Below are positions 5,606-38,756 of a stretch of 39,694 nucleotides of DNA, piece after piece. Source of the DNA: Actinoallomurus sp. (GTDB taxonomy: Bacteria > Actinomycetota > Actinomycetes > Streptosporangiales > Streptosporangiaceae); the NCBI GenBank assembly GCA_025964625.1, contig JAOPYL010000087.1:1-39694 (forward strand), in the 5' to 3' direction. The notes under the pieces were generated by a model. It was not told the DNA's origin, made no database searches, and was given only the letters and a program-made list of their open reading frames with translations. The stretch's first letter is position 1. The number at the start of each line of letters is the position of its first letter. Both the position numbers and the translations under genes were made by a program.

Positions 5606-6759
5606 TCGCCGATCCCGCCGAGCTTCACGTGTCCCTTCAGCAGGTTGCGGGCGATGGTCCGGCGCTGGATCTCGTCGGTGCCCTCGAAGATGCGCAGCAG
5701 GCGCAGCTCGCGGTACCAGCGTTCGATCGGCAGCTCCTTCGTGTAGCCCATGCCGCCGTGGATCTGCAGCACCCGGTCGACGACCTGGTTGGCCATGATG
5801 GCGCCGTTGAGCTTGGCGATCGACGACGCGTGCCGGGCGTCCAGGCCCTGCTGCGCCCGCCACGCGGCGTACAGCGTGAGCCACTTGGTCGCCTCGATCT
5901 CCACCTGGGAGTCGGCGATCTGCCACTGGATGGCCTGGTAGTCGGCGATCACGTGACCCATCGACTGGCGGATGTTGGCGTAGTCGATCGCCATCTGCAG
6001 CAGCCGCTCGGCCGAGCCGATGGCGCGTGCCGGGATCATGAAGCGGCCGTTGCGGATCCAGGTCATCGCCAGCTCGAAGCCCTTGCCGACCTCGCCGAGT
6101 ACGTTCTCCTCGGGCACGCGCACGTCCTCGAAGACGAGCGCCGCCGGGCCCCACTGGCCCATGGTGGGGATCGGCTCGGACTTCCAGCCCATGTCGCGGT
6201 CGGCGAGGAAGCAGGTGACGCCCGCGTCCGGCACGACGGCGAACACCATGACGAAGTCGGCCTCGTTGCCGCCGGTGATGAAGGTCTTCTCGCCGTTGAT
6301 GACGTAGTCGCCGCCGTCCTTGACGGCGCGGCTGGTGATGTTGCGCGCGTCGGACCCGGCGCCGGGCTCGGTGATGGCGAAGCAGGACCGCCGTGCGCCC
6401 TCGATCGTCGGGATCAGGTAGCGCCGCTTCTGCTCGTCCGTGCCCGCGTAGAGGATGTTGTCGGCGCTCCCGCCGAAGCTGAACGGCACGAAGGTGCGGC
6501 CCGTCTCCATCACGATGATCGCGGCCATGACGGCGCCGGCGTTCATGCCGCCGTACTCCTCGGGTGTGTTGATCCCCCAGAAGCCGGCCTTCTTGGCCTT
6601 GAGCTGCAGCTCCGTGATGGCGTCCAGGTCGAGACCGGGGCGGCCGGCGCGTTCGTTGCGCAGCACCTCGGGTTCGAGCGGCATGACCTCTTTCTGGATG
6701 AAGCTGCGGACGGTGTCGCGGATCTGCCGTTCCTCGTCGCTGAGGGAGAAGTCCACCAT
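5602..6759 (-). CDS. Acyl-CoA dehydrogenase
   Basis: A 385-aa FAD-dependent acyl-CoA dehydrogenase that introduces the alpha-beta double bond of acyl-CoA. It begins with the typical FSLSDEERQIRDTVRSF, has the signatures CFAITEPGAGSDA (about 130-142) and GEKTFITGGNEAD, and ends with RIFEGTDEIQRRTIA, in which the Glu of FEGT is the catalytic base. The ATG at 6759 has AAAGGAG 6 bases upstream; an extension to 6843 would run through the operator. It is first in a two-gene operon with the ADP-forming synthetase (4-base overlap). Operator site B ends 53 bp upstream of the start, and a TTGACA hexamer lies further upstream on this strand (6867-6872). Confidence 0.95.
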   Translation of the reverse strand: MVDFSLSDEERQIRDTVRSFIQKEVMPLEPEVLRNERAGRPGLDLDAITELQLKAKKAGFWGINTPEEYGGMNAGAVMAAIIVMETGRTFVPFSFGGSADNILYAGTDEQKRRYLIPTIEGARRSCFAITEPGAGSDARNITSRAVKDGGDYVINGEKTFITGGNEADFVMVFAVVPDAGVTCFLADRDMGWKSEPIPTMGQWGPAALVFEDVRVPEENVLGEVGKGFELAMTWIRNGRFMIPARAIGSAERLLQMAIDYANIRQSMGHVIADYQAIQWQIADSQVEIEATKWLTLYAAWRAQQGLDARHASSIAKLNGAIMANQVVDRVLQIHGGMGYTKELPIERWYRELRLLRIFEGTDEIQRRTIARNLLKGHVKLGGIGE

Positions 6760-6812
6760 CGGCCGACTCCTTTCTGACCGGGCGATTCCCCGGAGCACCG
6801 TCGGTGAGCTAT

Positions 6813-6833
6813 TTCTAGAACGAGCCTCTAGAA
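6813..6833. promoter_or_regulatory. Palindromic operator, site B of three
   Basis: Arms TTCTAGAA and CTCTAGAA flank a 5-bp spacer (CGAGC). It sits in the divergent space between the acyl-CoA dehydrogenase (start 6759, minus) and the TetR gene (start 6951, plus), so it could control both, including autoregulation. A minus-strand TTGACA at 6867-6872 is a plausible -35 for the dehydrogenase operon, although no good -10 at standard spacing is visible. Confidence 0.7.
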
Positions 6834-6950
6834 CTTGGTACAAGCCTGCGCCTCACCCGCGCGGGGTGTCAAGCAGACCGCACGTCCTCGCGTCGGCGGC
6901 TCGATTGTGGAATACCGTTCCGTAATCTGAGGACAGGGGCCGACAGCGAG

Positions 6951-7598
6951 GTGGAGATGGCACGCAAGACGACCAGCCGCCCGAGCGCGAACGCCTGGCA
7001 GTGGAGCCGCACGGCCGAGACCCGCCGGGGGATGCTGACGGCGGCCCGTGAGGTGTTCACCGAACGTGGCTTCGCCGACGCGAGCGTCGCCGACGTGGTG
7101 GAGCGCGCCGGCTCCAGCGTCGGCAGCCTGTATCACCACTTCGGCGGAAAGGCCGAACTCTTCCTCGCGCTCTGGGAGGACCACCAGGCCGCACACGAGG
7201 AGGGCGCCGCGACCGCCGTCGCCGGGGCGCGCCAGAAGGGCGAGATGGACCCGTTGGAGTTGTTCATCAGGGGCGCGCAGGCGTTCCTGGTGGAGTCGTG
7301 GGAGCGGCGCGACCTGGTCCGGCTGTTCATGGACGGCGACGGGCCGCCGGGGTTCGAGCTGATGCGCCGCACGCGCGGCCGTGAGTGGGTGCGGCAGAAC
7401 GCGGTCCTCCTGGGCGCCGGCTCCGACCCGGTCGCCCGCGTCACCGTCGCCGTGCTGACCACGATCATCGGTGAGGCGGGCCGCGAGGTCGCCGCCTGCG
7501 AGACCAAGGCGGAGGCGGACAAGGTCGCCGAGGCCACCATCCGCCTGATCCGCCGGCTCGACCCCCTCACTGTCGGTGACGAGCCCGCCCCGTCGTGA
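6951..7598 (+). CDS. TetR/AcrR-family transcriptional regulator
   Basis: A 215-aa TetR-type repressor. The N-terminal HTH covers about residues 22-68, with REVFTERGFADASVADVVER and the recognition-helix segment AGSSVGSLYHHFGGKAELF. The C-terminal part is a ligand-binding helical bundle. Translation may start at GTG 6951 or at ATG 6957; the latter has GCGAGG 4 bases upstream and looks slightly better. It is the only regulator gene within the cassette bounded by the three TTCTAGAA palindromes and lies next to site B, so it is the probable binder. An acyl-CoA ligand is likely by analogy with similar catabolic TetR proteins. Confidence 0.92.
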   Translation: MEMARKTTSRPSANAWQWSRTAETRRGMLTAAREVFTERGFADASVADVVERAGSSVGSLYHHFGGKAELFLALWEDHQAAHEEGAATAVAGARQKGEMDPLELFIRGAQAFLVESWERRDLVRLFMDGDGPPGFELMRRTRGREWVRQNAVLLGAGSDPVARVTVAVLTTIIGEAGREVAACETKAEADKVAEATIRLIRRLDPLTVGDEPAPS

Positions 7599-7637
7599 CC
7601 GGTGACTCACCGCGCGAGGCGCCTGGCCACCCGGGCC

Positions 7638-8483
7638 TCACCGGAACGCGGCCCGGCCGTGGTCGATGACGACCGTCCCGTCGTCCTTGGTGGTGCGGAA
7701 CAGCGCGGTGCCGCCGTCGGCCCAGATCGAGACGGTCAGCGACTCGCCGGGCAGCACCGGGCTGCTGAACCGCCCGGACATCGCCGCGAACCGGGCCGGA
7801 TCGGATCCGGCCAGGGTGTGCAGCAGCGCCCGGCCGGTCACCCCGTACGTGCACAGTCCGTGCAGGATCGGCCGCTCGAACCCGGCCCGCGCGGCGAACT
7901 TCGGGTCGGAGTGCAGCGGATTCCGATCACCGGAGAGGCGGTAGATCAGCGCCTGCTCGGGCCGGGTGACGTAGGTGACCTGGTGATCCGGTTGGCGGTC
8001 GGGTGCCGCCCAGTCGTCGCGCGGCCCGCGGTCGCCGCCGAAGCCGCCCTCGCCGCGGATGAAGGCCGAGCCGCGCGACGTGATGACCGTCTCGCCGGTG
8101 GCGGGGTCGGCCGCGGTGGCCTCGCTGACGACCAGAGCGCCGGACCCCTTGTCGTAGATCCCGGTGACTTTCGACGTGACACGCAGGGCACCCTCGGGAG
8201 CGAGCGGCCGGTGCAGCTCGAACGCCTGCTCGGCGTGGACGAGCATCGCCGGGTCGAAGTCGCCGATCCGGCGGGCGCCGGGAACCTGCGCGAGCAGCAC
8301 CGCGTACGTCGGCAGCACGTGCTGCTCGACTCCGCCGGAGTTCTCCGTCGTGAAGGCGAGCTCCTCCAGCGGGTCGCCGATCCCGGCACCGACGCCGACG
8401 GCGTACAGCAGCGCGTCCTTCGAGGTCCACGACCGTTCGTACGGTGCCGACTCGACGCCGACCGCGCTGTGGTCCAGCGGCAT
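7638..8483 (-). CDS. MaoC-family enoyl-CoA hydratase (hydratase-2, double hot-dog)
   Basis: A 281-aa protein like the hydratase-2 half of multifunctional enzyme type 2. It hydrates trans-2-enoyl-CoA to (R)-3-hydroxyacyl-CoA. A degenerate N-terminal hot-dog (about 1-150) precedes a C-terminal MaoC domain with the signature YRLSGDRNPLHSDPKFA and then GFERPILHGLCTYG; the Asp and His of DRNPLH are the catalytic pair. The start follows the SDR stop by one base, with GGAG upstream inside the SDR gene, so SDR and hydratase are co-translated. In animals the same two activities are fused in one polypeptide. Confidence 0.93.
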   Translation of the reverse strand: MPLDHSAVGVESAPYERSWTSKDALLYAVGVGAGIGDPLEELAFTTENSGGVEQHVLPTYAVLLAQVPGARRIGDFDPAMLVHAEQAFELHRPLAPEGALRVTSKVTGIYDKGSGALVVSEATAADPATGETVITSRGSAFIRGEGGFGGDRGPRDDWAAPDRQPDHQVTYVTRPEQALIYRLSGDRNPLHSDPKFAARAGFERPILHGLCTYGVTGRALLHTLAGSDPARFAAMSGRFSSPVLPGESLTVSIWADGGTALFRTTKDDGTVVIDHGRAAFR

Positions 8484-8484
8484 G

Positions 8485-9408
8485 TCAGGCTCCCTTCTCC
8501 GGGGTGCGGCCGTCCGGCATGACGTTCGGGGCGGCCTTCTCGACCAGGCCGGGGACGATCTCGCCGAGCTCGGCCGGGTCCCAGCGGGCGCCCTTGTCGG
8601 CGCCGGGGCCGGCCCGCCAGCCCTCGGCGACGCTGATCACGCCGCCGCGTGCGTTGAACACCCGGCCGGTGATGTCGCGGGCCTGGTCGGAGCCGAGCCA
8701 GACGACCAGGGGCGCGATGTTGTCGGCGGCGCGCGGGTCGAAGTCCTGCGGCTCCTCGCCCGGCTGCCAGCGGGTGAGACTCTCCGTCATGCGGGTCAGT
8801 GCCGCCGGGGCCACGGCGTTGACGGTGACCCCGTACCGGCCGAGCTCGCGGGCGGCGATGACGGTGAGCCCGGCGATGCCGGCCTTGGCAGCGCCGTAGT
8901 TGCCCTGCCCGGCGTTGCCGTAGATCCCGGACGATGACGTCGTGTTGATGATCGCGGCGTCGACCTGGTGCCCGGCCTTGGAGCGGGCCCGCCAGTACGC
9001 TCCGGCGTGCCGCAGCGGGGCGAACGTCCCGCGCAGGTGCACGCGGATGACGTCGTCCCACTCCTCGGCGGTCATGTTCACCAGCATCCGGTCGCGCAGG
9101 ATGCCCGCGTTGTTGACCAGCACGTGCAGGTCGCCGAAGTGCTCGATGGCCGATTCGATCATCCGCTTCGCGCCGTCGAAGTCGGAGACGTCGTCGCCGT
9201 TGGCGATCGCCTCGCCGCCCGCCTCCCGGATCCGCTCGACGACCTCTCCCGCCGGGCCGCTCGACGAGCCGCTGCCGTCGACCTCCGCGCCGAGGTCGTT
9301 GACGACGACCTTGGCCCCCTGACGGGCGAACTCCAGCGCGTGCCCTCGGCCGATGCCGCGCGCGGCGCCGGTGACGATGACGACGCGTCCCTCCACGATT
9401 CCGCTCAT
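8485..9408 (-). CDS. SDR-family 3-hydroxyacyl-CoA dehydrogenase (MFE-2-like)
   Basis: A 307-aa short-chain dehydrogenase with the Rossmann motif VTGAARGIGRGHALEFA (about 12-28), ND for cofactor choice (VVVNDLGAEVDG, typical of the NAD-dependent MFE-2 group), NNAG (about 96-99), and the catalytic Ser plus YGAAK (TSSSGIYGNAGQGNYGAAK). By family it oxidises (R)-3-hydroxyacyl-CoA to 3-ketoacyl-CoA, matching the hydratase encoded next. The ATG at 9408 has GAGG close upstream. Operator site C ends only 10 bp before the start codon, so repressor binding would cover the transcription start. Confidence 0.93.
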   Translation of the reverse strand: MSGIVEGRVVIVTGAARGIGRGHALEFARQGAKVVVNDLGAEVDGSGSSSGPAGEVVERIREAGGEAIANGDDVSDFDGAKRMIESAIEHFGDLHVLVNNAGILRDRMLVNMTAEEWDDVIRVHLRGTFAPLRHAGAYWRARSKAGHQVDAAIINTTSSSGIYGNAGQGNYGAAKAGIAGLTVIAARELGRYGVTVNAVAPAALTRMTESLTRWQPGEEPQDFDPRAADNIAPLVVWLGSDQARDITGRVFNARGGVISVAEGWRAGPGADKGARWDPAELGEIVPGLVEKAAPNVMPDGRTPEKGA

Positions 9409-27628: not shown

Positions 27629-28120
27629 ATGGTCGAGAATGCGACGCTCGTAAGCCGTACCCGTCCGAACCTGACCGCCGCCGAGATAGCCGCCCTCGGG
27701 CTCTCGCTCGCCCATCTGGGCGCGGGCCCACAGTCCGCCATCGCCCGCCGCGCCCTGCGGCACATGTTCGAGGACCTGGAGGCCCCGAGCGACGTCATCG
27801 CCACGACGCTCGCCACGCTGACCAGGCCGCTCGACCCCGCGACGGCGCGCCGGGCCAGGACCGCCGCCGGCGCGATCACCGCCCGGCTGGTCATCCGCCT
27901 GCACTACGCCGACGCGAAGGGGAACATCACGATCCGGGAGGTGGAGCCGGTCACCTGCCTCGTGCACCGCGACCACTGGTACCTCGTGGCGTGGTGCCGG
28001 CTCCGCCAGGACATCCGGGCCTTCCGGTTCGACCGGGTGCTCGCCGTCGAGTCGACCGACATCCCCGCCCGGCCGCATCGGGCCGAGCGCTTCCTGCCCT
28101 TCCAGGGCCGGGCGGCCTGA
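27629..28120 (+). CDS. WYL-domain protein without the N-terminal HTH
   Basis: A 163-aa protein. Residues about 13-70 match the helical linker that normally follows the HTH in YafY/PafB-type regulators (LTAAEIAALGLSLAHLG). Residues about 85-155 form the WYL ligand-sensing domain with HRDHWYLVAWCRLRQDIRAF and RFDRV. Full-length relatives are about 320 aa with an N-terminal winged HTH and a C-terminal WCX region; here both are missing. The ATG at 27629 has no ribosome binding site, and CGAAC repeats precede it. It may be a naturally short effector-binding protein or a truncated gene; the frame is intact. Upstream DNA does not encode the missing HTH. Confidence 0.8.
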   Translation: MVENATLVSRTRPNLTAAEIAALGLSLAHLGAGPQSAIARRALRHMFEDLEAPSDVIATTLATLTRPLDPATARRARTAAGAITARLVIRLHYADAKGNITIREVEPVTCLVHRDHWYLVAWCRLRQDIRAFRFDRVLAVESTDIPARPHRAERFLPFQGRAA

Positions 28121-28136: not shown

Positions 28137-29813
28137 CTACCCGAGGATCTCGGCGCGCAGACGGGTCTTGAGGATCTTTCCGCCGGGGTTGCGGGGCAGC
28201 TCGCCGTCGCGGAACCAGACGTGGGCCGGCACCTTGAACGCCGCGATCCGCTCGCGGAGGAACGCCCGGAGCTCGTCCGCCGTGACCGTCGCCCCGGGCC
28301 GCAGGCAGACGACCGCGCCGACCTCCTCGCCGAGCTCGTCGTGCGGCACGCCGATGACGGCTGCGTCGGCCACCGCGGCGTGCTCGTACACCGCGGCCTC
28401 GACCTCGGCGCAGTAGACGTTCTCACCGCCGCGGATCAGCATGTCCTTGGCCCGGTCGACGATGTACACGAAGCCCTCGGCGTCCACGCGGGCCAGGTCG
28501 CCGCTGTGCAACCAGCCGCCCACGAAGGCCTGGGCGGTGGCCTCCGGGCGGTTCCAGTAGCCCTTGATGACGTTCGGGCCCTTGATGAGCAGCTCACCGA
28601 CCTCGCCGGTGGGCACCTCCTCACCGGACGGGTCGACGACCTTGACGTCGCAGACCGGAACCGGCGGGCCGACGCTGTCCGGGTGGGCGAGGTAGTTGAT
28701 CCCGCTGTTGTACGTCGTCACCGACGAGGTCTCGGTGAGTCCGTAACCGTTGCTCGGCGTCCGCTCCGGCAGCTGCTGCTTGATCTTCTCGACCAGTGTG
28801 GGCGGCGCCGGCGCGCCGCCGTACGAGACCGCGGTGAGGCTGGAGATGTCGTACTTGTCGAACTCAGGGGAGGCGAGCACCTGCCACGCCATCGTGGGCA
28901 CGCCGCCGAACGTCGTGACCCTTTCGCGTTCGATGAGCTCCAGCGCCCGCTCGGCGTTCCACTTGTGGATCAGCACGATCGTGCCGCCCATCAGCGCGCT
29001 GGTCACCAGCACGGAGTGGCAGCCGGTCGCGTGGAAGAACGGCACGCCGAGCAGGGTCACGCGGCGCTGGGGCGCGGTGAGCTCCTCGGCCGTACCGCCC
29101 GCCCGCACCCCGGCGGCGAGCATCGCGTAACCCAGGCTCAGCGGGTTGCCGGTGATGTTGCGCTGCGTGCCGAGCGCGCCCTTCGGCCGGCCGGTCGTGC
29201 CCGAGGTATAGAAGATCGTCGCGTCGTCCTCGGGGTCGATGGCGACGTCGGGGAGGGTGTCGCCGACCTCGCCCAGCACCGACTCGTACGGCTCCGCGCC
29301 CGCCGGCGGCGTGCCGTCACCCCGTACGACGATGGTGGCGATGCCGAGTCCGGGTAGCACCTCGGCAAGACGACCGGCCCGCTCCTCGTCGGCGACGAGC
29401 ACCTTCGCGCCGCTGTCGCGCAGGCCGTACTCCAGCTCGGGCGCGGTCCACCACGCGTTCAGCGGCACGACGACGGCGCCGATCGCGGCCGCGCCGAAGA
29501 AGGCGACGGACCACTCGGGGAAGTTGCGCATGGCGATCGCGACCCGGTCGCCCTTTCGCACGCCGTACCGTTCGGTGAGCCGGCGCGCGAAGGTCGCCGC
29601 GTGCCGGAAGTGCTGCTCGAACGTCAGCCGCTCGTCCTCGTACACCAGGAACGGGGCGTCACCGTGCAGCCGGGTGATCTCCAGTACGGCCCGCAGTGAC
29701 GGGGGAGCGTGTTTCCAGACACGCGTGCGCTCGCCGCGGATCTCGGCCTCGTCCACCTCGAACAACTGCCCCGGCGCGGTCAGGGCGGCCTTCACCTCGT
29801 CCAGGCTCTTCAC
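28137..29813 (-). CDS. Acyl-CoA synthetase (class I adenylate-forming)
   Basis: A 558-aa AMP-forming acid-CoA ligase. The P-loop is IFYTSGTTGRPKGAL (about 196-210), motif YGLTETSSVT, hinge DRAKDMLIRGGENVYCAEVE, and the C-terminal catalytic lysine lies in RNPGGKILKTRLR. It activates a free acid for the dehydrogenase and kinase encoded upstream. The start is GTG overlapping the dehydrogenase stop (GTGA), making it the third gene of a tightly coupled kinase-dehydrogenase-ligase operon. This place matches LvaE in the Pseudomonas levulinate pathway (analogy, not orthology). Confidence 0.93.
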   Translation of the reverse strand: MKSLDEVKAALTAPGQLFEVDEAEIRGERTRVWKHAPPSLRAVLEITRLHGDAPFLVYEDERLTFEQHFRHAATFARRLTERYGVRKGDRVAIAMRNFPEWSVAFFGAAAIGAVVVPLNAWWTAPELEYGLRDSGAKVLVADEERAGRLAEVLPGLGIATIVVRGDGTPPAGAEPYESVLGEVGDTLPDVAIDPEDDATIFYTSGTTGRPKGALGTQRNITGNPLSLGYAMLAAGVRAGGTAEELTAPQRRVTLLGVPFFHATGCHSVLVTSALMGGTIVLIHKWNAERALELIERERVTTFGGVPTMAWQVLASPEFDKYDISSLTAVSYGGAPAPPTLVEKIKQQLPERTPSNGYGLTETSSVTTYNSGINYLAHPDSVGPPVPVCDVKVVDPSGEEVPTGEVGELLIKGPNVIKGYWNRPEATAQAFVGGWLHSGDLARVDAEGFVYIVDRAKDMLIRGGENVYCAEVEAAVYEHAAVADAAVIGVPHDELGEEVGAVVCLRPGATVTADELRAFLRERIAAFKVPAHVWFRDGELPRNPGGKILKTRLRAEILG

Positions 29814-31078
29814 GATTCGACTCCGTACTTCTCGCGGGCTGCGGCGATCTTGTCCGGCAGGTACTCGGTGGGCCAGCGACCCGGGGCGGGTTCGTGGTCC
29901 CTGAGCACGCGGCGGGCGATCGACGCCTGATGGACCTCGGTCGGGCCGTCCATGATCCCCATCAGGGGCGCCGCCTGCCAGAGCCGTGCGAGGGGGGTGT
30001 CATTGGAGACGCCGAGCGCGCCGTGCAGGTGCATCGCCCGGTAGACCACGTCGTGGAAGACCCGGGCGGCGGCCACCTTGCAGGCGGCGATCTGGGTGCG
30101 CGCCTCCTTGGTGGAGGACTGGTCGATCAGCCAGGCGGTGTGCAGGATCAGCAGCCGGAACTGCTGGATCTCGATGTAGGAGTCGGCGATCGCGGCCTGC
30201 ACGAGCTGCTTGCCGGCCAGGTTTCCGTCGTGGGTCTCCCGGGACAGCGCCCGCTCGCACATCATGTCGAACGCCTTCTTCACCGCCGCCACGGTGCGCA
30301 TCGAGTGGTGGATCCGCCCGCCGCCGAGCCGCGCCTGCGAGATCGTGAACGCCCCGCCCACCTCGCCGAGCAGCGCGTCCGCTCCCACCCGCGCGTCGTC
30401 GTAGCGGATGTGCGCGTGCCCACCGTCGCGGTGGCCCATCGTCGCGATGTCGCGCACGATCTCGACGCCCGGCGTGCCGGCGGGCACAAGGAACATCGAC
30501 ATCCGCTGGTACGGATGCGCGTCCGGGTCGGTCACCGCCATCACGATGAGGAACGAGGCGTTGGCGGCGTTGGACGTGAAGTACTTCTCCCCGGTGATGA
30601 CCCAGCCGTCGCCGTCGCGGACCGCCCGCGTCCTGAAGAGCCTGGGATCGGCGCCGGCGTGCGGTTCTGTCATCGAATAGGCGGAGAAGCACTCGCCGTC
30701 GAGCAACGGCTTCAGGTAGCGCGCCTTCTGCTCGTCGGTGCCGTACATCGCGATGATCTCGGCGTTGCCCGTGTCCGGCGCCTGGCAGCCGAAGATGACC
30801 GACGCCCACGGCGAGCGGCCGATGAGCTCGTTCATCAGCGCCAGCTTGAGCTGGCCGTAGCCCTGCCCGCCCAGGTCGGGGCCGAGGTGGCAGGCCCACA
30901 GGCCCTGCTCGCGTACCTGCCGCTTCAGGGGCTCGACGATCGTCCGCAGCTCGTCGTCGAGCGGTTCGTAGGCCTTACCGCCGAAGACGAGGTCGAGGGG
31001 CTCGACCTCGTCCCGGATGAAGGCGTCCATCCAGTCCAGCTTCGCCTGGAACTCCGATTCGGTGGAGAAGTCCCACAT
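29810..31078 (-). CDS. ACAD10/11-type acyl-CoA dehydrogenase
   Basis: A 422-aa member of the ACAD fold. It has CFSAYSMTEPHAGADPRLF, the FAD-loop segment GEKYFTSNAANASF, and a C-terminal MDGPTEVHQASIARRVL. In ordinary acyl-CoA dehydrogenases this last position reads YEGT with the catalytic Glu; here it is Asp-Gly-Pro, as in ACAD10/11 and LvaC, which handle 4-phosphoacyl-CoA. The ATG at 31078 shares one base with the stop of the kinase gene (TGATG). The longer frame to 31609 is antisense to the kinase. It is probably the partner of that kinase and converts 4-hydroxyacyl-CoA to an enoyl or 3-hydroxy isomer via phosphate elimination (inference). Confidence 0.92.
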   Translation of the reverse strand: MWDFSTESEFQAKLDWMDAFIRDEVEPLDLVFGGKAYEPLDDELRTIVEPLKRQVREQGLWACHLGPDLGGQGYGQLKLALMNELIGRSPWASVIFGCQAPDTGNAEIIAMYGTDEQKARYLKPLLDGECFSAYSMTEPHAGADPRLFRTRAVRDGDGWVITGEKYFTSNAANASFLIVMAVTDPDAHPYQRMSMFLVPAGTPGVEIVRDIATMGHRDGGHAHIRYDDARVGADALLGEVGGAFTISQARLGGGRIHHSMRTVAAVKKAFDMMCERALSRETHDGNLAGKQLVQAAIADSYIEIQQFRLLILHTAWLIDQSSTKEARTQIAACKVAAARVFHDVVYRAMHLHGALGVSNDTPLARLWQAAPLMGIMDGPTEVHQASIARRVLRDHEPAPGRWPTEYLPDKIAAAREKYGVES

Positions 31079-32124
31079 CAGGCCTCCATGAAGGTCAGGG
31101 CGCGGGCGAACAGCCCGAGTGTCGTCGCGTGCAGGAGGTCGCCGACGTCCTTGGCCGCCTTGCCGGCGCACGCGCGTGCGTGCGTGCCCTCCAGCACGAT
31201 GCCGAGCTTGAAGCAGGCCATGACGGCGTACCAGGTGAGCGCGGACAGATCGCGGTCCGACCGCGCGGCGTAGACGGCGGCCAGCTCGGCGGGGGAGGGC
31301 AGCCCGCCCGCCGCGCCGATGGCCCCGGAAAGCTTGGCGGTCTCCTCGCCCGGCCAGGTCGCGATCAGCCAGCCGAGGTCGAGCAGCGGGTCGCCGATCG
31401 TGCACATCTCCCAGTCGACGATCGCGGCGACCTCGGAGTCGGTGAAGGAGTAGAGCAGGTTGGCCAGGTGGTAGTCGCCGTGCATGATGCCGGGACGCCA
31501 GGTCGGCGGCCGGTTGTCCTCCAGCCAGGACGCGACCTTCGTGAGCCCTGGGATCCGCGGTCCGGGGTAGCCGTCCAGCGCGTTGTAGGACTCCAGCTCG
31601 GACAGCCACCGGCCGACCTGGCGTTCGAGGAAGCCCTCGGGCCTGCCCATGTCGCCGAGGCCCACGGCGACATGGTCGATGGCGCCGAGCTCGGCGAGCG
31701 CGGCGGCCGCCTCCAGGCCCATCCGGTGCCGCACCGCCGGGTCGCCGGCGTGGAGGTCGGGCAGCGTCGTGGTGGGGTTGAAGCCGCGCACCGACTCCAT
31801 GAGATAGAAGACGGCGCCGCCCATGACCGTCTCATCGGGGCAGGCCGCGATGAGACGCGGGGCGCGCACGCCGGTGCCGCTCAGCGCGGCCAGCACCCGG
31901 GCCTCTCGCCGCAGCGCGTCATTGCTCTTCGGCCGCGGGTGCGCGGGCGGGCGGCGCAGGACGTACTCGCGCGGCCCGCGCCAGAACCGGATCAGCACGT
32001 TCTGTGTGCCACCGCCGAGGCGCTCGACGGCCTCGAAGGCGCCGCCGGGGAGGCCCTGGCCGTCCATCCAGTCCGTGAGAACGCCGAAGTCGACGAGGGA
32101 CGCGTCGATGTGATCAGGCTGCAT
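31078..32124 (-). CDS. APH-fold kinase, ACAD10/11 kinase-domain type
   Basis: A 348-aa phosphotransferase of the aminoglycoside-phosphotransferase/choline-kinase fold. It carries the nucleotide loop RLGGGTQNVLIRF (35-47), the Brenner motif IMHGDYHLANLL with catalytic Asp217, and IVDWEMCTIGDPLLDLGW with metal-binding Asp237. This matches the kinase domain of human ACAD10/11 and bacterial LvaA-like proteins, which phosphorylate the 4-hydroxyl of acyl-CoA, rather than antibiotic resistance kinases. The ATG has GGAGG 10 bases upstream. It is the first gene of the operon and divergent from a TetR gene across a 33-bp palindrome. Confidence 0.92.
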   Translation of the reverse strand: MQPDHIDASLVDFGVLTDWMDGQGLPGGAFEAVERLGGGTQNVLIRFWRGPREYVLRRPPAHPRPKSNDALRREARVLAALSGTGVRAPRLIAACPDETVMGGAVFYLMESVRGFNPTTTLPDLHAGDPAVRHRMGLEAAAALAELGAIDHVAVGLGDMGRPEGFLERQVGRWLSELESYNALDGYPGPRIPGLTKVASWLEDNRPPTWRPGIMHGDYHLANLLYSFTDSEVAAIVDWEMCTIGDPLLDLGWLIATWPGEETAKLSGAIGAAGGLPSPAELAAVYAARSDRDLSALTWYAVMACFKLGIVLEGTHARACAGKAAKDVGDLLHATTLGLFARALTFMEA

Positions 32125-32156: not shown

Positions 32157-32189
32157 ATTCAACTGCATTAAAGGTCAATGTGGTTGAAT
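32157..32189. promoter_or_regulatory. 33-bp palindromic TetR operator over the TetR start codon
   Basis: Outer arms ATTCAAC and GTTGAAT are perfect, inner CATT/AATG also pair, and 11 of 13 arm positions match around a 7-bp centre. It spans the divergent space between the kinase operon (32124) and the TetR gene, and its right end includes the first two bases of the ATG at 32188. Binding should repress both genes, implying autoregulation. Confidence 0.72.
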
Positions 32190-32847
32190 GAAAACTGTGG
32201 GCACGGCGGGGCGCGCGACGAGGGAGCGCCTTCTCGAGGCCGCGGAACGCCTGTTCGCCGCCCAAGGCGTCAACGCCGTCAGCCTGCGCGAGATCGTCCG
32301 TGAGTCGGGCGCCCGCAACGTGACCGCCCTGCAGTACCACTTCGGCGACCGGAGGAGCCTGCTGCGCGCCGTCCTCGAACGGCACCACCGGGACGTCGAG
32401 ATCGCCAGGAACGCGCTGCTCGACACGTACGAGGCCGAGGGGGATGCCGACGTCCGGGCCCTGGCCGTCATCCTGGTGCGGCCCCTCGCGGCCAAGCTCG
32501 CCCACGCCGGAGGCAGGGCCTACCTGCGGATCCTCGGCGAACTCCTGAACCGCCCCGAGCCGGTGATCGACCGGGCGAGCCTTCGGAACCCCGCGGACAG
32601 CCTGTTCCGCTGGCGGGCCCTGACCGCCCCGCTGCTGGAGGAGGACGCCACCCGCCTGCACCGAAGGTTCGTGGCGGTGCGGTTCACCATGACCGAGCTC
32701 GCCCGCCGCGCGCAGTCCGGCCCGCACGCCGACGACCGGCTGTTCACCAGTCATCTCATCGATCTGGTAGCCGCGCTGCTGCTCGCGCCCCTGTCCCCGC
32801 AGACCCTGCGCCTGGCCGCCGAACGCGACCGCGGCCGTACGGCCTGA
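32188..32847 (+). CDS. TetR-family regulator of the kinase-dehydrogenase-ligase operon
   Basis: A 219-aa TetR protein. Its HTH (about 8-55) has TRERLLEAAERLFAAQGVNA, then VSLREIVRESG and ARNVTALQYHFGDRRSLL. The C-terminal domain resembles TetR_C_33-like acyl-responsive repressors, though this is a weak call. ATG 32188 has no ribosome binding site, and the operator reaches into it, so the message may be leaderless; GTG 32197 is an alternative. Divergent placement and the palindrome make it the likely repressor of 28137-32124. Confidence 0.92.
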   Translation: MKTVGTAGRATRERLLEAAERLFAAQGVNAVSLREIVRESGARNVTALQYHFGDRRSLLRAVLERHHRDVEIARNALLDTYEAEGDADVRALAVILVRPLAAKLAHAGGRAYLRILGELLNRPEPVIDRASLRNPADSLFRWRALTAPLLEEDATRLHRRFVAVRFTMTELARRAQSGPHADDRLFTSHLIDLVAALLLAPLSPQTLRLAAERDRGRTA

Positions 32848-33179: not shown

Positions 33180-34715
33180 TCAGGCGGCGTCCGCGGCGCC
33201 GGTCAGCCGCGCGACCTCGCGCTTATGCTCCTCGGCGTCGGCGCGCGCCGCCTTCGGGCTCCATCGGCCGATCAACGGGAGCATCAGCCCGAGGAAGAGG
33301 ACCTCGGCGACGATGCACACCCACCACCACGCCTGCCACTGGTGGGGTGCGTCGGCCGCCGCGCTCTTGATCTTCCCGAGCTCCGCGAGGAGGGCCGGCG
33401 GCGGAATCGTACCGGGCGGTACCGCCTTCGCCTGTTCCAGTACGACCGGGGCCTTGGTCAGGGTGTCGACCGCGCTGACGACGTACGGGAGCACGAAGAA
33501 GGACAGGCACACGACGATCCGCAGGATCCAGCCCCAGATCGCGAGGCCCGTCGCGGTCAGCGCGGGGTTGCGCCGCTCCACCGTCTCGGTGAACGCGGCC
33601 ATCCAGGGCGCGTACGCCGTGGCCAGTCCGAGGGCGAGCAGGCTGATGATCCAGATCAGCGTGGCCGAGCTCGTGTGCGGATGGGTGGTCCGGGTCATGA
33701 AGATGAAGGTCATCACCACTGCCAGCAGCGTGCCGGCCACCATGAAGGGTTTGCGGACCCTCAGCCGGTCCGACAGGACGCCCACGACCACCAGGGCGAC
33801 CGCGTTGATCCCCCAATACCAGGTGTTGATCCCGTTCGCCCGTGAGGTCGTGAAGCCGAAGTTCGAGGTCAGGTAGATGGTGAAGAACCCGACCGCCGTG
33901 TAGTAGATGAGCAGGAAGAGGCTGATGCCGAGCGCCGGGGCGAGGATGTCCAGGCGCAGCATCTGCCGCCACGGCCTCGCCAGGTTCGCCTCCCGCTCGG
34001 CACTGTCGGCCCTGGATTCGATGAGCTCCCGGTCGCCGACGCTCACCATCACCTGGTCACGGAGCCCGGGCTTGAGCTCCCGGAGTCCGAACAGGGCGAT
34101 CGCGAACGCGACCAGCCCGACGACGCCGACGATGTAGTACTGGCTCGACCAGGAGTTGTGCAGATGCGGCAGCGTCCGGTTCGCGACGAAGCTGACGACC
34201 AGGCTGCCGACGACCGGGCCGAGCGTCCAGAAGCCCATGGCGGAGGCCCGGCCGATCTGGGGGGAGAAGTCGCGCACGAGCGCCGGGGTCGCGACCAGAC
34301 ACATGCCTTCGACCAGGCCGCCCGCGATGGCGAAGATCGAGAAGACCACCTTGTTCGGCGCGAGCGGCGTCAGCAGGGTGAGCGCACCCGTCACGGCCAG
34401 TCCGTACGTCACGAGGTTGGCGCGGCCCCACCGGTCGGCCACACCGGCGACGAGGGAGCCGAACGCGCCCACCAGGTTCGACAGGACGAGGATGTTCACG
34501 TAGTAGAGGAACGACATCTTGTAGTGGGCCAGCACCAGCGGCGCCACGCCACCGGTGACGTACAGCTCGTAGTACAGGATGATCGTGACGAAGACCGCCA
34601 CGGCGAGGTACCAGTACCGAGGTCCGGTGTTCGGGTAGCGGTCGAGACCGCGGTGCCACAGGCGGTCAGGGGTGAAACGGCCCGCCGGGGCGGTCGTCGG
34701 ATTCGTGAGGGCCAT
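33180..34715 (-). CDS. MFS transporter
   Basis: A 511-aa major facilitator with twelve predicted helices. The conserved loop-2/3 motif is DRWGRANLVTYG (about 94-105), and the repeated loop-8/9 motif is SDRLRVRKPF. Long polar stretches sit between TM6 and TM7 (about 220-255) and near the C-terminus. The ATG has GAGGAAG 3 bases upstream. It is divergent from the TetR gene at 34888 across an 18-bp palindrome, so it is probably repressed by it. The substrate may be the acid activated by the neighbouring acyl-CoA synthetases, but the sequence does not show it. Confidence 0.9.
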   Translation of the reverse strand: MALTNPTTAPAGRFTPDRLWHRGLDRYPNTGPRYWYLAVAVFVTIILYYELYVTGGVAPLVLAHYKMSFLYYVNILVLSNLVGAFGSLVAGVADRWGRANLVTYGLAVTGALTLLTPLAPNKVVFSIFAIAGGLVEGMCLVATPALVRDFSPQIGRASAMGFWTLGPVVGSLVVSFVANRTLPHLHNSWSSQYYIVGVVGLVAFAIALFGLRELKPGLRDQVMVSVGDRELIESRADSAEREANLARPWRQMLRLDILAPALGISLFLLIYYTAVGFFTIYLTSNFGFTTSRANGINTWYWGINAVALVVVGVLSDRLRVRKPFMVAGTLLAVVMTFIFMTRTTHPHTSSATLIWIISLLALGLATAYAPWMAAFTETVERRNPALTATGLAIWGWILRIVVCLSFFVLPYVVSAVDTLTKAPVVLEQAKAVPPGTIPPPALLAELGKIKSAAADAPHQWQAWWWVCIVAEVLFLGLMLPLIGRWSPKAARADAEEHKREVARLTGAADAA

Positions 34716-34809
34716 CGCTTCCTCTTCTTCTTGGGGCGTGGCGTGTCGGAGCGCCGGTAGACGCCCCGCCCCCGAGGCGGATGTGCCCGATGAGCTGTGC
34801 CATCATGGC

Positions 34810-34827
34810 TGAATAAGCGTTCATTCA
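34810..34827. promoter_or_regulatory. TetR-type operator between MFS and TetR genes
   Basis: TGAATAAGCGTTCATTCA is an 18-bp inverted repeat with 7 of 9 paired positions. It lies 95 bp upstream of the MFS start and 61 bp upstream of the TetR start, a normal place for divergent control. Confidence 0.6.
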
Positions 34828-34887
34828 CAGATGTGAGACATTAGTACGCTCGGCCCGAGTGACGTGTCAAGACGGAGGGGCGGCGGA

Positions 34888-35511
34888 GTGACCGAACCGG
34901 AGCTGCCGCTCGGTGGTTCGCAGCTGCAGCGGCGCCTGGCCGGCGCCGCCGTCGAGCTCTTCTACCGGCAGGGCGCGATGGCGACGTCGGTCCGGCAGAT
35001 CACCGAGGCGTGCGGGTTGACCCCCGGCGCGCTGTACAACCACTTCGACTCCAAGGAACAGCTGCTGTACGTGGTGGTGCGCGACATCCACCTGCGGCAG
35101 GAGAGCATGCTGGCCGCCGCGCAGGCGGCCGTCGCCGGGGATCCGGTCGCGGAGCTCAGCGCGATCGTCGGGGTCTACGTGGCGCGCCATTCCCACCACC
35201 GGGAGACGGCGCGGGTGGCGAACCGTGAGTACCGCCTGCTGAGCGGGGAGAGATACGAGGAGGTCGTCGGCATCCGCCGGCGGCTCCGTGACCACGTCGT
35301 CGACGTGCTGCTCGCCGGCCAGCGGCACCAGGTGTTCCACCTGGTCGGCGGCGAGGACCGGACGGCGGCCGTGCTCACCGCGATCCCCATCCTGGACATG
35401 TGCGTGCACATCAGCGAATGGTTTGACGAACACCGGCCCCTCGGCCATGCCGACCTGCAGGCCCGCTACGTCGGGCTGGCGCTGCGCATGGCGGGAGCCC
35501 GAACCGACTGA
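34888..35511 (+). CDS. TetR-family regulator
   Basis: A 207-aa TetR repressor. Its HTH contains LAGAAVELFYRQGAMATSVR, then QITEACGLTPGALYNHFDSK, and the C-terminal domain is of the fatty-acid-responsive type (RETARVANREYRLL is typical of TetR_C_17-like domains). GTG 34888 has GGAGGGG 7 bases upstream; the longer GTG start at 34864 has none. Eighteen bases separate its stop from the synthetase at 35530, so the two form an operon. It probably binds the palindrome at 34810. Confidence 0.92.
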   Translation: MTEPELPLGGSQLQRRLAGAAVELFYRQGAMATSVRQITEACGLTPGALYNHFDSKEQLLYVVVRDIHLRQESMLAAAQAAVAGDPVAELSAIVGVYVARHSHHRETARVANREYRLLSGERYEEVVGIRRRLRDHVVDVLLAGQRHQVFHLVGGEDRTAAVLTAIPILDMCVHISEWFDEHRPLGHADLQARYVGLALRMAGARTD

Positions 35512-35529
35512 GACGACATGGAGGTCGCC

Positions 35530-37071
35530 ATGGCCGAGCTTCTCCGGCCGCATGCCCAGGCCCGGCCGGACGAGCCGGCCGTGACCGACGAGCGCGGCAC
35601 GACGACGTGGCGTGAGTTCGAGGCGCGCGTCGACCGGCTGGCCGGTGCGCTGCGTGGCCTGGGGCTGGTCACCGGGGACGCCATCGCGATCCACTCCGGC
35701 AATCGGCGGGAGTACTTCGAGCTGATGGCCGCGGCCACCCACGTGGGACTGCGTTACATCCTCGTCAACTGGCACTGGACGGCGGACGAGCTGGAGTACG
35801 TCCTCGCCGACTCCGGCGCCAAGGCCCTGTTCTCCGAGGACCGGTTCGCGGACGTGGCCGCCGAGGCCGGCGCGGACCTGGCGACCCGCGTGGGCATCGG
35901 CGAGATCCCGGGATTCCAGCCGTATGAGGAGTTCCTGGCCGGCGGCCCGGACGGCGAGCCCGAGGACCAGGTCCTGGGCTGGCCGATGATCTATACGTCG
36001 GGCACGACGGGCCGGCCCAGGGGAGTGAGCCGCAAGCTCGTGGCGGCGGGCGTCCCGATCGCCACGATGACGCTCATCGCCGAGGCGTTCGCCGAGATCC
36101 TGCGGATCCCGGCGGGTGGCCGTTCGCTGCTGGTCGGGCCGGTGTACCACTCCGCGCAGTGGCTGTGGTCGTACGGCCTGCTGTGCGCCGGACGTCCGGT
36201 CGTCATGCGGCAGGCGTTCGACCCCGAGGAGACGCTGAGCCTCATCCAGGAACACCGGATCACCAACGTGCACCTGGTGCCGACCCAGTTCGTGCGGCTG
36301 CTGCGGCTGGACGACGCGACACGGCAGGCGCATGACCTGTCCAGCCTCGAAGCCGTCTGGCATGGGGCGGCTCCGTGCTCACGCGAGGTCAAGCGACGGA
36401 TGATCGACTGGCTCGGGCCGGTCATCTATGAGTACTACGGTTCCACGGAGGCCGCGGTGAACACCGTGGTCTCGTCCGAGGAGTGGCTGAAGCGCCCCGG
36501 TACCGTCGGGCGGGCGCTGCCCATGACCGAGATCCACGTACTCCGCGACGACGGCACGCCGGCCGAGCCGGAGGAACGCGGGCAACTGTGGTTCCGCTAC
36601 ACGAGCGGCGACGACGTGGAGTACTGGGGCGACCCGGACAAGACCGCCTCCATGCACCGGGAGGACGGGCTCTTCACCACCGGAGACATCGGCTACCTGG
36701 ACGCCGACGGGTACCTCTTCCTCGCCGACCGCGCCATCGACATGATCATCAGTGGTGGTGTGAACATCTATCCGGCCGAGGTCGAGGATGTGCTCAGCAC
36801 CCATCCGGCGGTACGCGACGTCGCGGTCTTCGGCGTGCCGGACGAGGAGTACGGAGAGCAGGTCAAGGCCGCGGTGGAACTCGAGGACGGCCACGAGCCG
36901 TCGGAGTCGCTGGCCGACGAGCTGATCGCGTTCTCCCGTGCGTCGCTGGCCGGGTACAAGGCGCCCCGCTCGGTCGATTTCGTGACCGCGTTGCCGCGCA
37001 CCCCGACGGGCAAGCTCTACAAGCGGCTGGTCCGTGACCCGTACTGGTCCGGGCGGGACAAGCAGATCTGA
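35530..37071 (+). CDS. Acyl-CoA synthetase (FadD-like)
   Basis: A 513-aa AMP-forming ligase. It has the P-loop MIYTSGTTGRPRGVS (about 154-168), YEYYGSTEAAVNTV, the hinge DRAIDMIISGGVNIYPAEVE and the C-terminal lysine in RTPTGKLYKRLVR. ATG 35530 is preferred over 35518 because GGAGG lies 5 bases upstream of it. It is co-transcribed with the TetR gene. Its C-terminal half is strikingly like the next synthetase (37230-38756), pointing to an old duplication. Acid substrate unknown. Confidence 0.93.
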   Translation: MAELLRPHAQARPDEPAVTDERGTTTWREFEARVDRLAGALRGLGLVTGDAIAIHSGNRREYFELMAAATHVGLRYILVNWHWTADELEYVLADSGAKALFSEDRFADVAAEAGADLATRVGIGEIPGFQPYEEFLAGGPDGEPEDQVLGWPMIYTSGTTGRPRGVSRKLVAAGVPIATMTLIAEAFAEILRIPAGGRSLLVGPVYHSAQWLWSYGLLCAGRPVVMRQAFDPEETLSLIQEHRITNVHLVPTQFVRLLRLDDATRQAHDLSSLEAVWHGAAPCSREVKRRMIDWLGPVIYEYYGSTEAAVNTVVSSEEWLKRPGTVGRALPMTEIHVLRDDGTPAEPEERGQLWFRYTSGDDVEYWGDPDKTASMHREDGLFTTGDIGYLDADGYLFLADRAIDMIISGGVNIYPAEVEDVLSTHPAVRDVAVFGVPDEEYGEQVKAAVELEDGHEPSESLADELIAFSRASLAGYKAPRSVDFVTALPRTPTGKLYKRLVRDPYWSGRDKQI

Positions 37072-37215
37072 GCGCGCTGACACCAGTGGTGCGGCTCGGC
37101 GTTCTCGAGGACCTGATGCGGCCGAGCCGGGTCGGCGCGCCGGCCCACCAGGTCGTGGTAGCCGCGGTCCGGCGCCCCCGGACGTTCCCGCCTTTCGCCT
37201 GATCACCGGACCGAG

Positions 37216-37221
37216 TAGCGT
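37216..37221 (+). promoter_or_regulatory. -10 element of a leaderless transcript
   Basis: TAGCGT ends 8 bases before the GTG start at 37230, and there is no ribosome binding site. This is the usual geometry of leaderless actinobacterial mRNAs. No clear -35 is visible. Confidence 0.4.
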
Positions 37222-37229
37222 TCGGTTTC

Positions 37230-38756
37230 GTGCACCTGGGAGAGATCGCCGCTGTCACCCCTGACAAGCCCGCAGTGATCATGGCCGGCTCCGGCCGGGT
37301 CATCACCTTCCGCGAGCTGGACGAGGAGTCCAACCGGCTCGCCCGGCTCCTGCGCGCCGAGGGGCTGCGCCCCGGCGACCACGTCGCCTTCATGCTGGAG
37401 AACCACCCGTCGTTCCTCGCGGTCGCCTGGGCGGCGCAGCGCTCGGGGCTGTACTACACCGCGATCAGCTCGCGCCTGCGGCCCGACGAGCTGGCCTACG
37501 TCATCGGCAACTGCGGAGCCCGGGTCTTCATCTCCTCGGCGAAGCTCGAGGAGGTCGCGGTCGCCGTCGCCGACCGCACGCCCGGCGTCAAGCTCCGGCT
37601 GATGCTCGACGGCGCGGCCCCCGGCTTCGAACCGTACGAGGAGCGCATCGCCCGGCACCCCGCCACGCCCCTCGACGACGAGTGCGAGGGCATGGACATG
37701 CTCTACTCCTCCGGGACCACCGGCCGGCCCAAGGGCGTCAAACCGCCGCTCTCACGGGCGCCGATGGGCACGCCGAACAGGCTCTACCAGCTGATCGCGT
37801 TCCTCTTCCAGCCGGACGGCGACTCGGTCTACCTGTCGCCTGCGCCGCTCTACCACGCCGCGCCGCTGCGGTACTCCCTCAACCTCCACCGCTTCGGCGC
37901 GACCGTCGTCGTCATGGAGAGGTTCGACCCCGAGGAGGCGCTCCGGGCGATCGAGAAGTACGGCGTGACGCACAGCCAGTGGGTGCCGACCATGTTCATC
38001 CGGATGCTGAAGTTGCCGGAGGAGACGCGTGCCGCCTATGACCTGTCGAGCCTGCGGTACGCGGTGCACGCCGCCGCGCCCTGCCCCATCCAGGTCAAGG
38101 AGCAGATGATCGACTGGTGGGGGCCGGTGCTGCACGAGTACTACGCCGGCACCGAGGGCAACTGCTTCGTCTACACCGACTCCGAGGCGTGGCTGGCGCA
38201 CAGGGGCACCGTCGGCCGTCCGCTCCTCGGTGAGATCCATGTCTGTGCCGAGGACGGCACGGAGCTGCCCACCGGGCGGCCCGGCACGCTGTACTTCTCG
38301 GGCGGGTCGGAGTTCGAGTACCACGACGACCCGGCCAAGACCGCCTCGTCGCGCGACCCCCTCGGCCGTGGCTGGACCACCCTCGGCGACGTCGGGTACG
38401 TCGACGACGAAGGTTTCCTCTACCTCACCGACCGCCTGTCCTACATGATCATCAGCGGCGGCGTGAACATCTATCCGCAGGAGGTCGAGAACCTCCTGGC
38501 CGTCCACCCGAAGGTCGCCGACGTCGCCGTGATCGGTGTGCCGGACCCCGAGATGGGGGAGGCGGTCAAGGCGGTGGTGCAGCCGGTGGCGGCGGAGGAC
38601 GCCGGGCCCGCACTGGAGCGGGAGCTGATCGAGTACTGCCGCGAGCGCCTCGCGCACTATAAGTGCCCGCGCTCGGTCGACTTCCGCCCCGACCTGCCGC
38701 GCCATCCGACGGGCAAGCTCTACAAGCGGCTCCTGAAGGACGAGTACTGGAAATAG
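37230..38756 (+). CDS. Acyl-CoA synthetase (FadD4-like)
   Basis: A 508-aa AMP-forming ligase. It has the P-loop MLYSSGTTGRPKGVK (about 152-166), PLYHAAPLRYSL, HEYYAGTEGNCFVYTD, the hinge DRLSYMIISGGVNIYPQEVE and the C-terminal RHPTGKLYKRLLKDEYW. It starts at a GTG without a ribosome binding site, 158 bases after the previous synthetase and behind a possible -10, so it may be transcribed separately and leaderlessly. It is a paralog of 35530-37071, with almost the same hinge and C-terminal motif. Substrate unknown. Confidence 0.92.
   Translation: MHLGEIAAVTPDKPAVIMAGSGRVITFRELDEESNRLARLLRAEGLRPGDHVAFMLENHPSFLAVAWAAQRSGLYYTAISSRLRPDELAYVIGNCGARVFISSAKLEEVAVAVADRTPGVKLRLMLDGAAPGFEPYEERIARHPATPLDDECEGMDMLYSSGTTGRPKGVKPPLSRAPMGTPNRLYQLIAFLFQPDGDSVYLSPAPLYHAAPLRYSLNLHRFGATVVVMERFDPEEALRAIEKYGVTHSQWVPTMFIRMLKLPEETRAAYDLSSLRYAVHAAAPCPIQVKEQMIDWWGPVLHEYYAGTEGNCFVYTDSEAWLAHRGTVGRPLLGEIHVCAEDGTELPTGRPGTLYFSGGSEFEYHDDPAKTASSRDPLGRGWTTLGDVGYVDDEGFLYLTDRLSYMIISGGVNIYPQEVENLLAVHPKVADVAVIGVPDPEMGEAVKAVVQPVAAEDAGPALERELIEYCRERLAHYKCPRSVDFRPDLPRHPTGKLYKRLLKDEYWK

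Follow-up and report, generated by a model that had tools for sequence, protein, structure and literature searches.

The window analysed here is a stretch of 39,694 nucleotides from an Actinoallomurus sp., a soil actinomycete (assembly GCA_025964625.1, contig JAOPYL010000087.1), and the system in question is an operon of three genes on its minus strand, read in the order kinase, dehydrogenase and coenzyme A (CoA) ligase. The first gene (31078–32124, minus strand, 348 amino acids (aa)) encodes a small-molecule kinase of the aminoglycoside phosphotransferase (APH) fold (PF01636, E 2e-42) and is proposed to be a 4-hydroxyacyl-CoA kinase. The second (29810–31078, minus strand, 422 aa, ATG at 31078) encodes an acyl-CoA dehydrogenase (ACAD; PF00441, PF02770 and PF02771) with an Asp base, a putative phosphate-eliminating 4-phosphoacyl-CoA dehydrogenase. 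The third (28137–29813, minus strand, 558 aa, GTG start) encodes an AMP-forming acyl-CoA ligase (PF00501, E 9e-93; PF13193) that might activate the free hydroxy acid. A first-pass annotation of this DNA had reported gene overlaps of 1 and 4 bases, which the gene coordinates bear out in that order, and its motifs HGDYHLAN and IVDWE were located at kinase residues 215–222 and 235–239 and MDGPTEVH at dehydrogenase residues 376–383 (codons 29930–29953, minus strand, D377 inside). The operon is likely to be a split kinase/dehydrogenase module that readies a hydroxyacyl-CoA for beta-oxidation.

An Asp base in place of the Glu base, together with a predicted phosphate-binding set of Arg, His and Arg, is present in the dehydrogenase, which is 40% identical to the dehydrogenase domain of mouse ACAD11 over 346 aligned residues. 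In this alignment, H597, R626, R631, H634, R637 and D753 of ACAD11 correspond to H221, R250, R255, H258, R261 and D377. D753 is named as catalytic in PMC12440821, where R626, H634 and R637 are modelled with salt bridges to the 4-phosphate. Mutagenesis described in the same source found non-conservative changes of R626, H634 and R637 to be the most disruptive, stopping the step, and only a partial effect of R637K.

Equivalents of R250, H258 and D377 are kept in all 97 bacterial Asp-type rows of the dehydrogenase alignment (window included), and that of R261 in 93 of them. Divided into classes cut by bit score and not by tree, with cuts that vary between comparisons (for the tail comparison below, everything under 410 bits forms one class of 34), the full signature R/H/R/D was found in 63/63 rows in the score range of the window protein, in 4/4 intermediate rows and in 26/30 lower-scoring Asp-type rows. 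The remaining four lower-scoring rows read R/H/H/D and all come from Chloroflexota loci (L124, L129, L130 and L133), where His at the position of ACAD11 R637 (motif RLAYGRLRHGMH) forms a natural variant of the phosphate site beside a window-type kinase. None of the 13 non-Asp ACAD rows carries the full set; these represent 12 genes: six from the window's genome, of which one lies on the window and was counted twice, and another six that neighbour family genes at other loci. Median identity to mouse ACAD11 was 40% (36–44) in the 63 window-range rows, 43% (41–45) in the four intermediate ones, 56.5% (34–62) in the 30 lower-scoring Asp-type rows, some of them divergent, and 26% (21–31) in the 13 others.

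A fold search with the dehydrogenase model returned 4hr3 first (E 8e-28), then ACAD11 (8v3u and 2wbi, about 1e-26 to 2e-25) and the first ordinary ACAD at 2e-22. The entry 4hr3 is a putative acyl-CoA dehydrogenase from Mycobacterium abscessus that was the best PDB match by both sequence and fold; it carries DGPDEVH and lies outside the set used for the tree.

On the kinase side, the catalytic D217 and N222, D237 (the metal site) and R168 align with D220, N225, D240 and R176 of mouse ACAD11. R176 is a CoA contact. In PMC12440821, a Glu of helix C is said to neighbour R86; that R86 stands at position 84 in the numbering used here (an offset of two residues), and the window has R73-E74 there. R73-E74 (helix C), R168, D217, N222 and D237 are kept in 109/109 kinase rows, mouse included, all selected by similarity to the window kinase. 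The AlphaFold model of the kinase has a mean confidence (predicted local distance difference test, pLDDT) of 91.8, and its best fold match is 3dxp, an APH-like protein of Ralstonia eutropha, followed by Rv3168 (3ats) and the 25-hydroxy steroid kinase. By sequence, the closest solved kinases are 9o56 (E 7e-43) and 3dxp (E 2e-39), and the ACAD11 kinase domain was found by phmmer at E 6e-27.

Both proteins were placed in trees, for which the dehydrogenase alignment held 110 of 115 rows (five duplicates dropped) plus mouse and the tree 64 of those 111 (below 80% identity), and the kinase alignment held 108 of 112 rows plus mouse and the tree 49 of those 109 (below 78% identity); a length filter kept the annotated kinases of L021 and L022 outside both. 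Structure alignments used 16 and 20 chosen rows. Asp-type dehydrogenases split from other ACADs at 100/99, so that the window enzyme, with Asp and not Glu as base, groups apart from ordinary ACADs as had been predicted. It falls into a clade of 27 rows (100/99), and mouse ACAD11 into a separate clade of 19 rows (100/99). A third Asp-type clade of three rows joins them, and since the tree does not settle the order of the three, 'sister' is meant only loosely. The kinase tree splits along similar lines and separates 39 rows with the window from 10 rows with mouse (100/100; the mouse row was flagged for odd composition).

The kinase and dehydrogenase thus form a separate bacterial branch of the family next to the ACAD10/11 clade. 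Orthology to ACAD10/11 was ruled out by both trees, as the window proteins lie outside the clades that hold ACAD11. The earlier ACAD10/11 reading therefore stands for the Asp base, the R/H/R set and the catalytic residues of the kinase, and fails for clade membership: the pair is filed as working like ACAD10/11 and belonging to the wider Asp-type family, outside the ACAD11 clade. The branch, whose chemistry is known, is itself apparently undescribed; literature searches, read at the level of titles and abstract beginnings of open-access PMC papers, gave no description of the window clade.

Compared with ACAD11 and ACAD10 (8v3u, 8v3v and 2wbi), the window shares the Asp base, the R/H/R set, the R631 equivalent, the catalytic residues of the kinase and the R176 equivalent. 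The animal proteins are fusions of kinase and ACAD, whereas the window has two separate genes in separate clades, and it reads HHSMR and DGPTEVH where ACAD11 has HHCMR and DGPDEVH. The C-terminal tail is longer in window-type enzymes, with a median of 46 residues past the EVH histidine against 17.5 in lower-scoring Asp-type rows, and a W[PD][ST]..P motif occurs in 46/63 window-range rows and in 0/34 others.

The two trees do not match perfectly. Among 19 kinases labelled as lying beside a window-type dehydrogenase, 18 group with the window and one, the long-branched L153, with mouse; the 15 whose label gives another Asp-type dehydrogenase (mouse among them) divide into eight on the mouse side and seven on the window side. 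A window-type kinase beside another Asp-type dehydrogenase was found at 6/80 kinase loci and in genome G038 (L060). Partners have therefore been swapped at times. In L060 (2289–3692; the genome is of the same class), the dehydrogenase near the window-type kinase is a divergent Asp-type enzyme (33%) with YDGPTEVH and RLAPARLTHCMR.

The window's genome holds further members of the family. Of its 41 ACAD matches, the five best are Asp-type by motif, and the next six are not. These five are the window's own, a 64% identical paralog on contig C370 that lies near its own kinase with a short-chain dehydrogenase/reductase (SDR) between them, canonical-type dehydrogenases on C299 and C57 (61% and 58% identical to mouse ACAD11) and a fragment at the end of C145. 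Kinase matches comprise three at E below 1e-49 and a weak one at 1e-10, and the kinase on C159 (L020) groups on the mouse ACAD11 side of the kinase tree.

Across 149 genomes of the phylum, including the window's, 62 hold a dehydrogenase (E at most 1e-75) and 59 a kinase (E at most 1e-25), of which 57 have both, five the dehydrogenase only and two the kinase only; 85 have neither. A kinase lies within 3 kb of 9/24 high-scoring dehydrogenases (at least 410 bits; two of them from the window's genome), 0/5 intermediate and 11/66 lower-scoring ones, always on the same strand, and 20/88 kinases are near a dehydrogenase.

Kinase loci were taken as the best 80 of 346 confirmed relatives. In named records these are 62–88% identical to the window kinase, the nearest being from Actinoallomurus (88% and 84%) and Actinomadura sp. 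DC4 (83%). With the TetR gene, the order kinase, dehydrogenase, ligase recurs in two relatives, L063 from Actinomadura sp. DC4 and L064 from Actinoallomurus iriomotensis; it is also seen in L062, where the contig ends within the ligase. The arrangement is therefore not due to chance. A window-type dehydrogenase lies within 3 kb at 37 of the 80 loci (five on the same strand and 32 divergent), another Asp-type dehydrogenase at six, and neither at 37.

The ligase was present at only 3/80 kinase loci, with 83% identity in L063 and L064 and, in L062, 81% over the 227 aa that precede the end of the contig; other matches reached 33–38%. The proposal of one coupled module of three genes is thus supported by the gene overlaps, but it does not extend to the ligase in most relatives. 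Two further candidates for a ligase were rejected: the 559-aa neighbour of TetR in L120, ligase-like in length, is an adhesin-type protein, and the third gene of L111 is a second ACAD (PF12806).

Divergent from the operon lies a gene for a TetR-family regulator (32188–32847, plus strand, PF00440, TetR_N), in line with the claim that the system has its own TetR control. A homolog (tblastn, at least 50% identity, any length) was found at 37/37 loci whose kinase has a window-type dehydrogenase within 3 kb versus 2/43 others (Fisher P 9e-21, with kinship ignored and the majority of loci from Actinomadura). TetR thus belongs to the conserved unit, whereas the CoA ligase does not. An imperfect palindrome, ATTCAACTGCATT..AATGTGGTTGAAT (32157–32189, 33 bases, no strand), extends into the TetR start codon and is a candidate operator. 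It is weak, as 82/2000 shuffles were equally good, and no palindrome of equal quality (arms of 11, at most two mismatches) occurs in L062–L064 or L111, although its core ATTGAC..TTAATG is conserved there. Seven other loci likewise had none of equal quality and showed two unrelated repeats instead.

The pair very likely runs the ACAD10/11 reaction, and both the site of the hydroxyl and the way in which TetR acts are likewise deduced. Phosphorylation of a 4-hydroxyacyl-CoA and elimination of the phosphate to yield an enoyl-CoA is the chemistry of the ACAD10/11–LvaC family, and its assignment to the window pair is a well-supported inference. A 4-hydroxyacyl-CoA is proposed as substrate because the pocket residues match, and not because of orthology. 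The overall conversion is established for ACAD10/11 and, as cited in PMC12440821, PMC11342911 and PMC6692424, for LvaA/LvaC. In the cycle envisaged, the CoA ligase (or another ligase) would make the CoA thioester of a hydroxy acid, and the kinase would phosphorylate its hydroxyl, for which the gamma (4) carbon is the likeliest place. In the dehydrogenase, R250, H258 and R261 would hold the phosphate and D377 would take the alpha proton. As in the cycle proposed for ACAD10, a hydride would then pass to flavin adenine dinucleotide, the phosphate would depart and the hydride would return, so that a plain 2-enoyl-CoA would be formed with no net oxidation. Control of the set would fall to the TetR protein, probably a repressor that lets go when it binds a ligand derived from the substrate.

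Several points weigh against this interpretation. D217, N222 and D237 are general to APH-fold kinases at large, and R168 also aligns with an Arg of the more distant Rv3168 (3ats); since such residues are shared so broadly, they are no proof of an acyl-CoA substrate. Among the 50 listed fold matches of the kinase model, the ACAD11 kinase domain is missing, and stretch 377–407 of the dehydrogenase model, which contains the catalytic base, has a pLDDT below 50. Identity to ACAD11 is only 40% for the dehydrogenase and 29% for the kinase, and no assay of any enzyme of the window clade was found in the literature searched. The co-occurrence of both genes in 57 of the 149 genomes carries no control for genome size, and 15/24 high-scoring dehydrogenases of the survey have no kinase inside 3 kb. 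Because 37/80 kinase loci (five near a contig end) have no family dehydrogenase inside 3 kb, the kinase may have other partners.

It is conceivable, though doubtful, that the two clades form a second, separately specialised phospho-activation system that takes hydroxyls off acyl-CoAs, stands beside a canonical ACAD10/11-type set in the same genomes and acts on hydroxy acids beyond the reach of that set, namely those with rings or branches (terpenoid, steroid or lactone-derived). A related and rather unlikely alternative keeps phosphorylation and elimination but places the hydroxyl elsewhere than on C4 of a straight chain, as a tertiary alcohol or on a ring- or terpenoid-derived acid. The kinase model matches the 25-hydroxy steroid kinase of Sterolibacterium (9fsg; Foldseek E 6e-14, 20% identity; phmmer 2e-5), which has the same fold and differs by an identity of about 20% and a free steroid substrate. 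That kinase primes an alcohol for phosphate elimination in catabolism, with the lyase given as unknown in the 2021 paper (PMC8449060). Some relatives of the pair lie near P450 and CoA-transferase genes, and neighbours resemble ketosteroid or oxocyclohexanecarboxylate dehydrogenases (L027) and FMO (L017), both below NCBIfam cut-offs. A dehydrogenase in the canonical score range is also present in 11 of the 14 genomes that have a high-scoring one, which suggests different substrates. However, ACAD11 has the same phosphate set in the same relation to the Asp base, which favours the same geometry, and the varied neighbourhoods indicate no single substrate.

A strict Lva operon for levulinate or 4-hydroxyvalerate is most improbable. 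Adjacent counterparts of LvaA (kinase), LvaC (dehydrogenase) and perhaps LvaE (CoA ligase) would speak for it, and as in Pseudomonas LvaA/LvaC/LvaE, kinase and dehydrogenase are separate genes with a CoA ligase nearby, a likeness drawn by description and not by sequence. DUF6285 (PF19802), the family of LvaB, has no match in the window's genome (0 matches; 95% complete). No SDR (LvaD-like gene) is found among the coupled genes, and the dehydrogenase, 40% identical to ACAD11, lies in a clade apart from that of ACAD11. The regulator is a TetR here, whereas LvaR is of the sigma54 type (PMC6692424). A levulinate pathway is thus not indicated. In P. citronellolis, the region covered by PMC6692424 likewise lacked an lvaB homolog. 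An even slighter chance falls to an ordinary beta-oxidation operon of ligase and ACAD beside an unrelated APH-type kinase, for instance an antibiotic-modifying one: 9o56 and 3dxp are filed as aminoglycoside phosphotransferases and weak NCBIfam matches to the APH(3') and Mph families exist, but the APH(3') match reaches 26.8 against a cut-off of 205 bits, the Glu base is absent from the dehydrogenase, which does carry the phosphate set, and kinase and dehydrogenase co-occur across the 149 genomes. An antibiotic-resistance kinase as such was ruled out, as these matches fall far below cut-off.

Preference is therefore given to the split module acting on a 4-hydroxyacyl-CoA, and relatives in other contexts add to its picture. 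Neighbour clusters were read by Pfam from one representative each, and plasmid contexts were drawn for 20 of 80 rows, which stand for 40 out of 1856 and 40 out of 1564 records. Of 11 annotated plasmid records, nine have a phosphotransferase gene that adjoins a related dehydrogenase or lies at most two genes from it; the two others have no phosphotransferase annotated and incomplete gene tables. An SDR gene stands directly beside the pair in 6/11, which would suit an LvaD-like role in reducing a 4-keto acid. The lack of an SDR in the window operon would fit a substrate that arrives already hydroxylated. On a plasmid of Deinococcus radiodurans (L146, 7109–8897), an Asp-type dehydrogenase gene is followed by phosphotransferase and histidine phosphatase genes, and the levulinate cluster of P. 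citronellolis has a histidine phosphatase gene by the lvaA homolog (PMC6692424).

In six Streptosporangiaceae loci (L107, L108, L113, L126, L139 and L140), genes for acyl-CoA carboxylase subunits, an enoyl-CoA hydratase and AtuA (acyclic terpene utilisation) precede the window-type kinase, which two genes separate from AtuA in L139 and L140; no Asp-type dehydrogenase was found inside 3 kb of the kinase in this set.

Other genes of the window surround the operon. A short WYL-domain protein (27629–28120, 163 aa), in which Pfam gives no DNA-binding domain, lies beside the ligase. The region 33180–38756 holds a major facilitator superfamily (MFS) transporter, a second TetR and two more AMP-forming ligases, and relatives of the transporter, the TetR and the first ligase sit near the operon in L062 and L063. 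A separate acyl-CoA cluster (3530–9408) contains a CoA-binding/succinyl-CoA-ligase-like/ATP-grasp synthetase, an ordinary Glu-type ACAD, a 215-aa open reading frame, a MaoC-type hydratase and an SDR.

In the annotated records examined, genes of this family carry the labels 'phosphotransferase family protein' and, with nothing more specific, 'acyl-CoA dehydrogenase family protein'. In Rhodococcus opacus PD630, the kinase partner (L028, 8218–9255) bears the annotation 'Acyl-CoA dehydrogenase family member 10', and 3dxp has a chain called 'putative acyl-CoA dehydrogenase' despite its kinase fold; both names were probably copied from the animal fusion. The papers on ACAD10/11 chemistry date from 2024 and 2025. 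Such generic gene names may mask a widespread bacterial pathway for hydroxy acids. If the window clade carries out the same reaction on other substrates, the known range of bacterial gamma-hydroxyl removal would be wider, and its kinase/dehydrogenase pairs would be suited to testing by the published assays.

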